From NCBI RefSeq assembly GCF_003206065.1, contig NZ_PZJQ01000001.1, forward strand, positions 32,444 through 96,443: a stretch of 64,000 nt of DNA, in the 5' to 3' direction. Position numbers and translations under genes: made by a program. Source of the DNA: Salinicola halimionae (GTDB taxonomy: Bacteria; Pseudomonadota; Gammaproteobacteria; Pseudomonadales; Halomonadaceae). Shown here in pieces: positions 43,943-48,677 of this stretch; the first letter of the stretch is position 1, and every line of letters begins with the position of its first letter. The notes beneath the pieces were generated by a model. The model was not told where the DNA came from. It ran no database searches and worked only from the letters and a program-made list of their open reading frames with translations.

Positions 43943-45094
43943 ATGGAACTGATCCGAGGTTTGCACAATTTGCCGCACACCAGCGATGCCACCCAGCGGC
44001 AGACGCTGCGTGGCTGCGTGGCCACCATCGGCAACTTCGATGGCGTGCATCTTGGCCACCGGGCCATCCTGGAACAGTTGCGCACGCTCTCCCGGGCGGA
44101 GGGGCTGCCGGTCACGGTGGTGATCTTCGAGCCCCAGCCGCGAGAATTTTTCGCCGGCGATCAGGCGCCGCCCAGACTGACTCGCCTGCGCGACAAGGTG
44201 GCGCTGCTCAAGGCGCACGGCGCCGACCGCATTCTGTGCCTGCCTTTCAACGACGCCCTGCGGAGTCTGACCGCACGGCAATTCATTGAGCGCGTGTTGA
44301 TCGAGGGGTTGCAGGTCAAGCATCTGGTGGTCGGCGATGACTTCCGCTTTGGCTGCGACCGTTCGGGTGATTTTACCTTGCTGCAGGCGGTGGGGCGGGA
44401 GCGGGGTTTTGCCGTCGATCATACGCGCACCTTCGCCCTCGACGACGAACGCGTCTCGAGCACGCGAGTGCGTACGCTGCTGGCCAGCGGCAATTTCTTT
44501 CAAGCCGCGCGCATGCTGGGCCGCCCCTACGGCTATCAGGGGCGGGTCGTTCGCGATCGTCAACTGGGGCGTACCATTGGCGTGCCGACCGCCAACATAC
44601 CGCTGACTTCGCGGCCCCTGGCACTGCGCGGCGTGTTCGCCTGCGCCACGCGTCTGCCGGACGGTGAATGGGTGGCGGGTGTGGCCAATATCGGCTGGCG
44701 ACCCACCGTCGGCGCCGACCGGCCGATGCTCGAAGTGCACCTGCTGGACCGCGAAATCGAGCTGTACGGTCGGCCGCTGACCGTCGTGCCCTGTGCACGA
44801 CTGCGTGGCGAAACCAAGTTCGAAGATTTCAGCGCGCTGGTAACCCAGATACACCGTGACCTCGATAGTGCCCGGCAATATTTCTTGCAGGCTTCCCTGC
44901 AGACGTTCCCACTGGCCGAGCCCCATGGGCCAGAAATGACCGATGCCGAGGCTGAGGCCGTCGATAGCGGAGGTCTGTGTGCCGCGACATTGCCACAGGC
45001 GCAGTTTCCCCTTGCTTCGGCACCATTGCCGCCTGATACCTCGACCATTGAGGCTCCTTCGGGGCCGGTATCCACCGATGCCTCGGACGAATGA
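43943..45094 (+). CDS. ribF: Bifunctional riboflavin kinase/FAD synthetase
   Basis: Converts riboflavin to FMN and FMN to FAD. FAD synthetase domain with GNFDGVHLGH (30-39) and the SSTRVR element (about 171), then the riboflavin kinase domain (about 185-310; GVPTANI, ELYG). 383 residues against about 313 in E. coli: the last 60 or so residues are a low-complexity Ala/Pro/Ser/Thr/Glu tail with no recognised domain. First of the ribF-ileS-lspA-fkpB-ispH run. No FMN riboswitch was recognised upstream. Confidence 0.95.
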   Translation: MELIRGLHNLPHTSDATQRQTLRGCVATIGNFDGVHLGHRAILEQLRTLSRAEGLPVTVVIFEPQPREFFAGDQAPPRLTRLRDKVALLKAHGADRILCLPFNDALRSLTARQFIERVLIEGLQVKHLVVGDDFRFGCDRSGDFTLLQAVGRERGFAVDHTRTFALDDERVSSTRVRTLLASGNFFQAARMLGRPYGYQGRVVRDRQLGRTIGVPTANIPLTSRPLALRGVFACATRLPDGEWVAGVANIGWRPTVGADRPMLEVHLLDREIELYGRPLTVVPCARLRGETKFEDFSALVTQIHRDLDSARQYFLQASLQTFPLAEPHGPEMTDAEAEAVDSGGLCAATLPQAQFPLASAPLPPDTSTIEAPSGPVSTDASDE

Positions 45095-45178: not shown

Positions 45179-48061
45179 ATGAGCGACTACAAGCACACGT
45201 TGAATCTGCCATCGACCGACTTCCCTATGCGCGGCAACCTGCCGGCGCGGGAGCCGGGTCGAATTGCGCAGTGGAACGACATGAATCTCTACGCCAGGCT
45301 GCGGGAAACCCGGCAGGGGCGGGAGCGGTTCGTACTTCACGACGGCCCTCCGTACGCCAACGGCAGCATTCATATCGGTCATGCGGTCAACAAGCTGCTC
45401 AAGGACTTCATCGTCCGGTCGAAAAATCTGGCCGGTTTCGACGCCCCCTACGTGCCTGGCTGGGATTGCCATGGCCTGCCGATCGAGCACAAGGTCGAAA
45501 CGACTCACGGCAAGCATCTGCCGGCCGACGAGGCGCGAGCATTGTGTCGTGAATATGCCGCGGCGCAGGTCGAAGTGCAGAAGGAAGGCTTCGTGCGTCT
45601 TGGCGTCCAGGGGGACTGGGGCAACCCTTACCTGACCATGAACTTCGCCAATGAAGCGGGCGAGATTCGCGCTCTGGCCGAGATGGTCAAGGGCGGCTAT
45701 GTGTTCAAGGGTCTCAAACCTGTCAACTGGTGCTTCGACTGCGGCTCGGCGCTGGCCGAAGCGGAGGTCGAGTATCAGGACAAGCAGTCCGACGCCATCG
45801 ACGTCGCGTTCCCCAGTGTCGACGATGCCGGTCTTGCGGCGGCATTCGGTCTCGACTCGCTGCCCAAGCCGGCAGCTGCGGTGATCTGGACCACCACGCC
45901 CTGGACCATTCCGGCCAACCAGGCAATGAACGTCCATCCGGAGTTTACCTATGCGCTGGTCGATACCGGCGAGCGCCTGCTGCTGCTGGCCGAGGAGTTG
46001 GTCGAATCTAGCCTCGAACGCTTTGGGATAAGCGGCAAGACCCTCGCGACCGCACCGGGCGAGCGTCTCGAGAACCTTGCCTTTCGCCACCCGCTGGCAG
46101 CGTTGGACGACGGCTACGACAGGATCTCGCCGATCTATCTGGCCGACTACGTCGAGCTGGGCGCCGGTACCGGCATCGTCCACTCGTCGCCCGCCTATGG
46201 CGAGGACGACTTTTACACTTGCCGCGCCTACGGCATGAGTTTCGACGAGATTCGCAATCCGGTGCAGAGCAACGGTGTCTATGCCGCCGATCTGCCCCTG
46301 TTCGGCGGGCAGATGATCTGGAAGGCCAATCCGCAGATCGTCTCCAAGCTGGAAGAGGCGGGCGCGCTGATGGCCCACGACAAGATCACCCATAGCTACA
46401 TGCACTGCTGGCGTCACAAGACGCCGGTCATCTATCGTGCCACGGCCCAGTGGTTCGTAGGCATGGATCTCGAAGGCGCCGATGGCAAAACGTTGCGCGA
46501 CAAGGCGTTGGCAGGCGTCGATGCGACCGATTTCATCCCCGCCTGGGGTCAGGCGCGACTGCACTCGATGATCGCCAATCGTCCGGACTGGTGCATCTCG
46601 CGTCAGCGCAACTGGGGCGTGCCGATCCCGTTCTTTCTCGACAAGGCGAGCGGCGAGCTGCATCCGCGCACGGTCGAATTGATGGAAACCGTCGCCCAGC
46701 GCGTCGAGCAGGAGGGCATCGACGCCTGGTTCAAGCTCGAGCCGAGCGAACTGCTGGGCGACGAGGCCGACGATTACGAGAAAGTCACCGATACCCTCGA
46801 TGTATGGTTCGACTCCGGCACCACCCACTGGCACGTGCTGCGCGGTTCGCATGCCTCCGTTTTCCAAGGGCTGGGTCAGGGGCCGTGCGCGGATCTGTAT
46901 CTCGAAGGTTCGGATCAGCACCGCGGCTGGTTCCACTCGTCACTGCTGACCGGCTGTGCCATCGACGGGCATCCTCCCTACCGGTCGCTGTTGACCCACG
47001 GTTTCACCGTCGACGAGAAAGGCCGCAAGATGTCCAAGTCATTGGGCAACGTGGTCGCACCACAGCAGGTGATGGACAAGCTGGGCGCCGATATCCTGCG
47101 ACTATGGGTCGCCTCCACCGACTATTCCGGCGAGATGGCGGTCTCCGACGAAATCCTCAAGCGTACCGCCGACGTCTATCGGCGGATTCGCAATACCTCG
47201 CGCTTTCTGCTCGGCAATCTGGCCGGCTTCGAGCCGACCCGTGATGTCGTGGCTTTCGACGACATGCTGGCGCTGGATCGCTGGGCGGTGGATCGCGCCG
47301 CCGACTTGCAGGCGCGTATTCAGAAGGCCTATGCCGACTATCGTTTCCGTGATGTCTACCAGCAGGTTCACGACTTCTGCGCACGAGACATGGGCGGTTT
47401 CTACCTCGATATCATCAAGGATCGCCAGTACACCACCCAGCCCGATTCGCTGGCTCGGCGCAGCTGTCAGACCGCGCTGTACCATATCGTTGAGGCTCTC
47501 GCGCGCTGGGTGGCGCCGATCCTGTCGTTCACCGCCGAGGAAATCTACGAGAACATTCCCGGCGAGCGCGGGTCGAGCGTGCACCTCGAGACCTATTACG
47601 ACGGGCTTGCCACGCTGCCCGAAGACACGGCCGCCACTCAGAGTGGAAGCGCTGCAATGGGTCGCCAGTTCTGGGAGCGGGTGATCGCGGTCAAGCAAGC
47701 GGTCAACAAGCAGCTCGAAGATGCGCGTAACGCTGGCATCATCAAGGGCGCGCTGGATAGCGAAGTGACACTCTATGTAGACGACTCGCTGAATGCGCTG
47801 CTGTCACGCTTCGAGGACGAGCTGCGTTTCGTGTTGATCACGTCCGAGGCGACGCTCGAGCCGCTGGAGAAGGCGGGTGAGGCCAAGGCCACCGAACTGG
47901 ATGGCCTTAAGATGGCGGTTCGCATGAGCCCGTACGAGAAAGATGAACGTAGTTGGGAGCGTCGTCCCGATGTGGGCGCCAACCCGGACCACCCGACGCT
48001 GTCGGCGCGCTCGATCGCCAATCTGCCGGACGGTCCGGGTGAGGTACGCCGCTTTGCCTGA
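45179..48061 (+). CDS. ileS: Isoleucyl-tRNA synthetase
   Basis: Charges tRNA-Ile and edits valine. 960 residues (E. coli 938), class Ia: HIGH signature at 65-68, a CP1 editing domain (about 190-410), KMSKS at 617-621, anticodon-binding domain. In most bacterial IleS the C-terminus is a zinc knuckle with CxxC...CxxC. Here the same framework is visible ([19 protein letters not shown] in the last 48 residues) but all four cysteines are gone. The start at 45179 ([13 protein letters not shown]) is chosen over an upstream ATG at 45143; no good ribosome site is present. Confidence 0.96.
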
Positions 48062-48098: not shown

Positions 48099-48677
48099 AT
48101 GCACCGTCCGCTGCGTTGGCTGTGGCTATCGCTGGTGGTCGTCGTGCTCGACCTCGGGGTCAAGGCGCTGGCCACGGCCCATCTCGACTATGGCCGGCCG
48201 TTGGAAGTGCTGCCGGTCTTCAACCTGACGCTTTTGCACAATACCGGGGCGGCGTTCAGCTTTCTGGCCGAGCACGCGGGCTGGCAGCGCTGGCTGTTCG
48301 CGCTGATCGCCATCGGCGCCAGTATCGGCCTGACGGTTTGGTTATCACGATTGAAGCGTGGCGAGACGCTGACGGCGATCTCGTTGACGCTGGTCATCGG
48401 CGGTGCCATCGGCAATCTCTATGATCGTCTGGCGCACGGCTATGTGGTCGACTATCTCTCGTTCCACTGGGGCGACTGGTACTACCCGGCATTCAACCTC
48501 GCCGATACTGCGATCACGCTGGGCGCGATCGGCCTGGTGTTGCAGTCGCTGCTCGAGTCGCGCCGGCCGAAAGCCGCTCCCGTCGCCAGCCGGGACAAGC
48601 CTTCTTCGACTGCCAAATCTACTTCGGCTGATAAATCTACTTCGGCTGATTCCTCTTCGACCAAGGGTGACTCATGA
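48099..48677 (+). CDS. lspA: Lipoprotein signal peptidase
   Basis: Inner-membrane aspartic protease that removes signal peptides from prolipoproteins, the target of globomycin. 192 residues, four helices, catalytic Asp118 (YVVDYLSF) and Asp136 (FNLADTAI), plus NNTG-like HNTGAAFS. The C-terminus carries a Ser/Thr/Lys/Asp-rich tail of about 35 residues absent from E. coli LspA, produced in part by an 18-bp duplication. The stop overlaps the fkpB start by four bases. Confidence 0.95.
   Translation: MHRPLRWLWLSLVVVVLDLGVKALATAHLDYGRPLEVLPVFNLTLLHNTGAAFSFLAEHAGWQRWLFALIAIGASIGLTVWLSRLKRGETLTAISLTLVIGGAIGNLYDRLAHGYVVDYLSFHWGDWYYPAFNLADTAITLGAIGLVLQSLLESRRPKAAPVASRDKPSSTAKSTSADKSTSADSSSTKGDS
48615..48650 (+). 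repeat. In-frame 18-bp tandem duplication in the lspA tail
   Basis: AAATCTACTTCGGCTGAT occurs twice without mismatch (48615-48632, 48633-48650), coding for a repeated KSTSAD in the cytoplasmic C-terminal tail of LspA. Confidence 0.93.

Follow-up and report, generated by a model that had tools for sequence, protein, structure and literature searches.

The isoleucyl-tRNA synthetase (IleRS) gene, ileS, in the stretch of Salinicola halimionae DNA analysed here (64,000 nucleotides, referred to as the window) encodes a type-1 enzyme in which all four zinc-ligand positions of the C-terminal finger are occupied by residues other than cysteine. This is a real variant of a known enzyme, common to several genera of the family Halomonadaceae, namely an IleRS zincless finger of which intermediates survive. 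The tail is probably a functional zincless finger, which would keep the shape of a zinc finger, present the same Arg and Trp toward the anticodon of tRNA-Ile and be held together by a network of polar and charged side chains instead of zinc. We infer that the tail contains no zinc and folds without a metal, that the enzyme charges its tRNA, that the Arg and Trp retain their role, and that the replacements arose in the order and direction given below.

The ileS gene and the C-terminal finger of its product

The features of the window considered in this analysis are as follows, with C1 to C4 denoting the four ligand positions.

43943..45094, + strand: ribF, upstream neighbour of ileS (open reading frame), serving as a marker of organism relationships
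45179..48061, + strand: ileS, type-1 isoleucine--tRNA ligase of 960 aa (ATG start, stop included; identified by TIGR00392, Pfam and motifs)
47939..48058, + strand: zincless finger, the C-terminal 40 residues of IleS, aligned without gaps to the CxRCW...CxRC of relatives; no PF06827 match
47942..47944, + strand: C1 ligand position, now Asp (GAT)
47948..47950, + strand: conserved Arg, aligned with Staphylococcus aureus R888 (numbering from the 1ffy alignment), invariant in 85/85 family relatives
47951..47953, + strand: C2 ligand position, now Ser (AGT)
47954..47956, + strand: conserved Trp, aligned with S. aureus W890 (numbering from the 1ffy alignment)
47957..47965, + strand: Glu-Arg-Arg following the Trp; His-His-Arg in four-cysteine relatives
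48002..48004, + strand: C3 ligand position, now Ser (TCG)
48005..48007, + strand: position after C3 (C3+1), Ala in the window; mostly Gly in four-cysteine tails and mostly Glu in two- and one-cysteine intermediates
48011..48013, + strand: C4 ligand position, now Ser (TCG)
48099..48677, + strand: lspA, downstream neighbour of ileS (open reading frame, ATG start read)

The two neighbouring genes are those that we take to be ribF and lspA. The window protein scores 890.7 bits against NCBIfam TIGR00392 (cut-off 621.4), which identifies it as a full-length type-1 IleRS, matches the Pfam families tRNA-synt_1 and Anticodon_1, and carries both the HIGH and the KMSKS signatures (HIGHA, KMSKSLGN). The C-terminal Cys4 zinc motif of type 1 is absent, the corresponding residues being Asp, Ser, Ser and Ser; the protein is still a type-1 IleRS, by descent and by the rest of its sequence. 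An identity as IleRS2 was rejected, with scores of 277 bits for MupA and 263 bits for MupB against cut-offs of 1900. IleRS2, the eukaryote-like and mupirocin-resistant form, possesses a different C-terminal domain; it is likewise described as having no C-terminal Cys4 cluster (PMC4861432, PMC10485003).

Two further observations concern the enzyme body. The NCBIfam model for an IleRS-acetyltransferase fusion (ileS_w_GNAT) reaches 1124 bits on the IleS part, short of its cut-off of 1999, and in the best stretch the 960-aa protein matches only from profile position 448. Additionally, KQSKS takes the place of KMSKS in the IleS of L105-L112, L115, L116, L126-L130, L132-L134, L136, L137, L145, L146, L148, L157, L161, L163, L165, L167 and L169; among these family loci, some of which belong to the same genome, the finger cysteines are present in some and absent in others, and the window has KMSKS.

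The tail K-C-E-R-C-W-H-H-R ... L-C-G-R-C of canonical relatives aligns without gaps to K-D-E-R-S-W-E-R-R ... L-S-A-R-S in the window. The original prediction of an IleS tail devoid of its zinc-knuckle cysteines is borne out by this alignment, in which C1 to C4 are Asp, Ser, Ser and Ser; it had named Ser, Arg, Glu or Trp as the replacements, of which Ser stands, while Arg, Glu and Trp are adjacent residues brought in by a slight misalignment and Asp is found at C1. The Pfam model of the finger, PF06827 (zf-FPG_IleRS), gives no match to the window protein at E<=1, nor to one relative with the same four replacements and two relatives with Ser at C2 and C4; it matches the four-cysteine controls L008 and L009 at 37.2 and 31.0 bits, and the three-cysteine relative L176 barely passes (21.8 vs 21.3 bits). 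Compared with the Cys4 type-1 IleRS represented by S. aureus 1ffy, Priestia megaterium 8c9e and PF06827, the window protein is the same enzyme with the same tail register and the same Arg and Trp (888 and 890 in S. aureus), whereas all four ligands are replaced and the PF06827 match is gone. In S. aureus IleRS, R888 and W890 presumably contact the tRNA anticodon, with only their numbering coming from the 1ffy alignment.

A sequencing or assembly error as the cause is ruled out, since the same four replacements occur in 17/17 readable genomes of the genus (window genome included) and in the record of Salinicola halophilus CECT 5903. An eighteenth genome of the genus, G017, was excluded because its ileS assembly is frame-broken; the gene lies there in three pieces (L102-L104) of a single-contig genome of 93% completeness, probably through assembly errors. 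No second ileS was found in the window genome, which is 99.99% complete, the other ileS matches being partial, 25-29% identical and located in two further reading frames of synthetase size. Relatives with normal cysteines, coupled with an error in the window, or a second, zinc-type IleS doing the main work had been named as findings that would overturn the original prediction; neither was encountered in the aligned congeners or in the genome search. As only one ileS was found and IleRS is universal, the tail would have to work without the four cysteines.

Altered isoleucine tRNAs, in the form of a UAU tRNA or a lost lysidine pathway, were considered but not found in the window genome. Its 60 tRNA matches include one tRNA-Ile with GAU and one CAU tRNA that we take to resemble tRNA-Ile2, none of the 60 is a UAU tRNA, and TilS is present. 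A modified base, ava2C34 (PMC11938285), was weighed as a further possibility.

Distribution of the cysteine loss and the accompanying substitutions

The tabulated family tails comprise the window and 85 relatives, the latter being tails from other family genomes, counted after the removal of six duplicate loci and the three G017 pieces. Written as the residues at C1 to C4, the relatives divide into 41 CCCC, 1 CSCC, 15 CSCS, 2 CSTS, 1 CSSS and 25 DSSS, and the window itself is DSSS; 45 of the 86 tails (window included) are short of one to four cysteines, and none of the 86 is truncated. Another 19 named family loci, some from the same genomes, stand outside the 86, with DSSS in L006, CSCS in L007 and L011, and CCCC in the other 16. 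The signature WERRxDVG was detected in 46 of 275 family genomes, and it lies at the end of ileS in all 44 of these that were read; the matches in G078 and G270 sit on contigs other than their ileS. For 189 of the 275 genomes the coverage consists of this pattern screen alone, outside the tabulation, and further cysteine-short forms may hide there; an ileS match at 1e-100 was lacking in five of the 275.

Beyond the family, the sampling range comprised Pseudomonadota and PDB entries. All four cysteines are kept in 61/61 named loci outside the family and in 28/28 other Pseudomonadota loci, 27 of them outside the family, which came from the best 30 of the 58 genomes matched among 60; the ileS of the window and one previously read relative account for the other two of the 30. 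As a DNA pattern, WERRxDVG turned up in 7 of the 390 genomes searched in the order, five of them family members and two outside the family. Among 372 order genomes no ileS with WERRxDVG was found outside the family, as the two matches there lie outside ileS, and the pattern would miss other types of loss.

The replacement of the ligands is accompanied by a defined set of changes in neighbouring residues. The Arg located two residues after C1 and the Trp following C2 are invariant in 85/85 family relatives, including the rows that have lost cysteines. The combination typical of a zincless finger, in which the ligands are lost and the functional Arg is kept, is therefore found here (Arg in 85/85), the tRNA contact of this Arg being our assumption. 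The Trp is followed by HHR in 41/41 CCCC rows, by EHR in the single CSCC row and by ERR in 43/43 rows missing two or more cysteines. Position C3+1 holds Gly in 38/41 CCCC rows, Ala in the one CSCC row, Glu in 17/18 CSCS, CSTS and CSSS rows (Lys in one), and Ala in 25/25 rows with Asp at C1 (DSSS). An acid seems to depart from the C3 side as one appears at C1, which suggests that a network of side chains has taken over from the metal.

These new acids have also been weighed as ligands. According to this explanation, the CSCS forms would hold zinc with two Cys and two new Glu, and the DSSS forms would hold a hard ion (Mg2+ or Ca2+) with Asp, Glu and Ser. The position of the acids beside the lost cysteines, with a Glu two positions beyond C2, another adjacent to C3 and then an Asp at C1, speaks for such a metal swap, but the second half-site of DSSS reads Ser-Ala-Arg-Ser and retains no acid, and we regard the explanation as unlikely. 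A fuller version holds that a mixed Cys/Glu zinc site came first, that an Asp/Glu/Ser site binding Mg2+ or Ca2+ eventually took its place, and that the tail with its changed metal belongs to a module recombining between genera. This version is slightly less probable again; if it were true, anticodon reading by an essential synthetase would depend on a different ion.

The codons at the ligand positions provide a further record of the losses. Genera are designated here by number, g1 being the window's genus in the dN/dS comparisons below, and the data suggest that g23 is Vreelandella and g9 is Halotalea. The Ser at C2 is encoded by AGY, one step from the TGY of Cys, in 44/44 relatives that lack one or more cysteines, which is the pattern expected from a single first loss. 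The Ser at C4 is encoded by TCN in 40/43 rows (g1, g10, g11, g18, g23) and by AGY in three (g4, g9), a mixture indicating that C4 was probably lost at least twice. At C3, TCN is used in the DSSS rows of g1 and g10; g18 and one g11 have AGC, and two g10 rows have ACC, which encodes Thr. The first loss thus looks single, and those of C4 and C3 probably took place more than once; it follows that the first step seems to have made the later ones tolerable.

In the explanation favoured here, the change probably proceeded in four steps. The first would have been the replacement of Cys2 by Ser, together with His by Glu after the Trp; the second, the replacement of Cys4 by Ser, with a Glu arising beside Cys3; the third, the loss of Cys3; and the fourth, the replacement of Cys1 by Asp, with the Glu beside C3 giving way to Ala.

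Mosaic history of ileS within the family

The histories of the finger, the enzyme body and the neighbouring genes were compared, with ribF, a homologue of which is present in 89/89 rows (tblastn), representing the organisms. Both the ribF tree and the fkpB-ispH tree place g4, g9 and g24 together and g10 with g18; the fkpB-ispH tree adds g11 to them, and g11 stands alone in the ribF tree. By ribF, the window's genus groups with g5, a genus with CCCC tails (support 87), and it has no firm place in the downstream tree. The ribF data do not reject a single clade of the 24 cysteine-short rows outside g23 (p-AU 0.152), and the downstream tree puts these rows together with a weak support of 10.6. Between cysteine-short and CCCC states, the ribF tree requires at least 5 changes, the downstream tree at least 4 and the tree of the ileS body at least 3.

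Genus g23 is mixed, with 10 of its 82 genomes being cysteine-short by the signature. Within g23, the bodies of these ten alleles cluster with seven alleles from g10 (support 100). The fingers of the ten share 92-98% identity with the g9 finger in 10/10 cases and at best 72-75% with the 18 CCCC g23 fingers, and the corresponding bodies (first 880 columns) are 76-78% identical to g9 and at best 87-91% to CCCC g23. At the DNA level, the two halves of the finger of L115 are 93 and 85% identical to g9, and 74 and 62% to CCCC g23; its body DNA (first 800 columns) gives no such contrast, at 78-79% vs 77-80%, being no closer to CCCC g23 than to g9. The seven g10 genomes combine a g23-like ileS body with a DSSS finger, and in g11 the body groups with the distant genera g16 and g20 while the finger and the downstream flank go with the cysteine-short genera. 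More generally, ileS is a mosaic in the family (L106-L112, L115-L117, L123-L132), with foreign bodies in g11 and g10 and neighbouring genes that follow the organisms.

These conflicts among finger, body and flank indicate that ileS recombines in the family and that the finger and the body can differ in history. The first cysteine loss probably happened once and the finger module probably reached other genera through ileS recombination. The first step would most likely have occurred in a lineage including Salinicola and Halotalea, rendering later, recurring losses tolerable, after which the 3' end of ileS or whole alleles would probably have recombined into the 10/82 genomes of g23. The C4 Ser codon, AGY in g9 and TCN in g23, speaks against a direct donation from g9 to g23; another cysteine-short lineage, or convergence, is a possible source of the g23 finger.

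Selection on the finger, its alternatives and its significance

In the window's genus, the finger has a dN/dS of 0.050, the body one of 0.110 and the 100 columns preceding the finger one of 0.179; of 48 sliding windows along the genus alignment, 11 lie below the value of the finger. The ten CSCS rows of g23 give 0.034 for the finger vs 0.060 for the body, and 13 CCCC rows of the same genus give 0.078 vs 0.060; the seven DSSS rows of g10 show weaker constraint on the finger (0.138) than on the body (0.057). These values indicate that a cysteine-short finger is under the ordinary constraint of a working part rather than an exceptional one, and that it is not simply decaying. The explanation that the finger is dispensable and its cysteines have drifted away can draw on the gradual character of the loss, on the different remnants held by different lineages and on the high ratio of the g10 rows, but it conflicts with the low ratios of g1 and the g23 CSCS rows, with the invariant Arg and Trp, with the set accompanying changes and with the lack of a truncated tail among the 86, and it appears very unlikely.

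AlphaFold2 models give the window finger and that of a four-cysteine relative the same order of strands and helix, from an alignment consisting mostly of zinc-type rows. The mean pLDDT values of successive blocks are 81, 88, 83, 78 and 73 for the window finger and 85, 87, 84, 73 and 80 for the relative, in blocks of ten residues that are three residues out of register and short at the end. Because 29 of the 33 alignment rows are four-cysteine, the predicted finger shape may be carried over from them, and the model of the body is poor (mean pLDDT 64). Structure searches with the window model return IleRS structures first, which, given the poor body model, says little about the finger.

The absence of zinc ligands can also be viewed as zinc economy, the site having been lost because these bacteria live where zinc is scarce, in the manner of cysteine-free ribosomal proteins and FolE2. 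The window genome does contain a cysteine-free ribosomal protein L31 beside a zinc-type L31, the usual zinc-sparing pair (loci L239 and L240), and FolE2, the zinc-independent cyclohydrolase, occurs in 13/17 readable members of the genus. However, the zinc-type L31 is retained, no FolE2 match was obtained in the window's own genome, and a related finger of Cys4 type, that of a protein taken from its N-terminus to be MutM, is intact there (CRHC...CTLC). FolE2 does not track the trait, being present in 20/45 cysteine-short genomes vs 106/230 other family genomes, the 230 including the 189 pattern-only genomes, G017 among them. Moreover, the zinc-sparing proteins described in PMC2770081 (ribosomal proteins, DksA and HemB2) are paralogues that have lost the zinc-ligand cysteines with the rest conserved, and they are additional copies for which Zur control is predicted or demonstrated, whereas no copy of this kind beside a zinc-type IleS was found here, the one ileS found in the 99.99% complete genome having itself changed. 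Zinc economy is therefore regarded as improbable. The original prediction had offered adaptation to zinc-poor conditions or a structural replacement; the L31, MutM and FolE2 results weigh against the former, and the latter is supported by purifying selection, the invariant Arg and Trp, and the pairing of ligand losses with specific neighbouring substitutions.

The closest precedent for a structural replacement comes from human NEIL1 and plant Fpg (MMH), whose zincless finger is of the Fpg/IleRS type and has lost its zinc ligands; PMC9266487 also describes the fingers of Fpg/Nei glycosylases as supplying a conserved Arg that acts on nucleic acid. The ligands have been lost from the same kind of finger as in the window IleS, but the glycosylases are other enzymes acting on DNA, the loss was presumably independent, and in IleRS the intermediates survive among living genera. 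The model of the NEIL1 finger itself, PF09292, is not among the Pfam matches of the window protein.

Several points count against a functional zincless finger, namely the dN/dS of g10, the 11 of 48 sliding windows with lower values, the position of the genus in the ribF tree, the mixed C4 codons and the body DNA of L115. The C-terminal zinc motif is, in addition, described as essential for aminoacylation in other IleRS in PMC4861432, which cites Glasfeld et al. 1996. No report of cysteine loss in the type-1 IleRS finger was found in the literature searched, a weak result since subscription journals lie mostly outside it.

In living relatives, among which several intermediates survive, a zinc site that has been called essential for aminoacylation is dismantled. 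The finger of these salt-loving bacteria would represent a tRNA-side counterpart of the zincless finger of DNA glycosylases, and unlike the usual zinc-sparing pairs, it involves a loss of zinc ligands without a spare copy. Two questions become testable: by what route a structural metal is replaced when the enzyme is essential and can never be shut down, and what role zinc plays in IleRS beyond holding the Arg and Trp.
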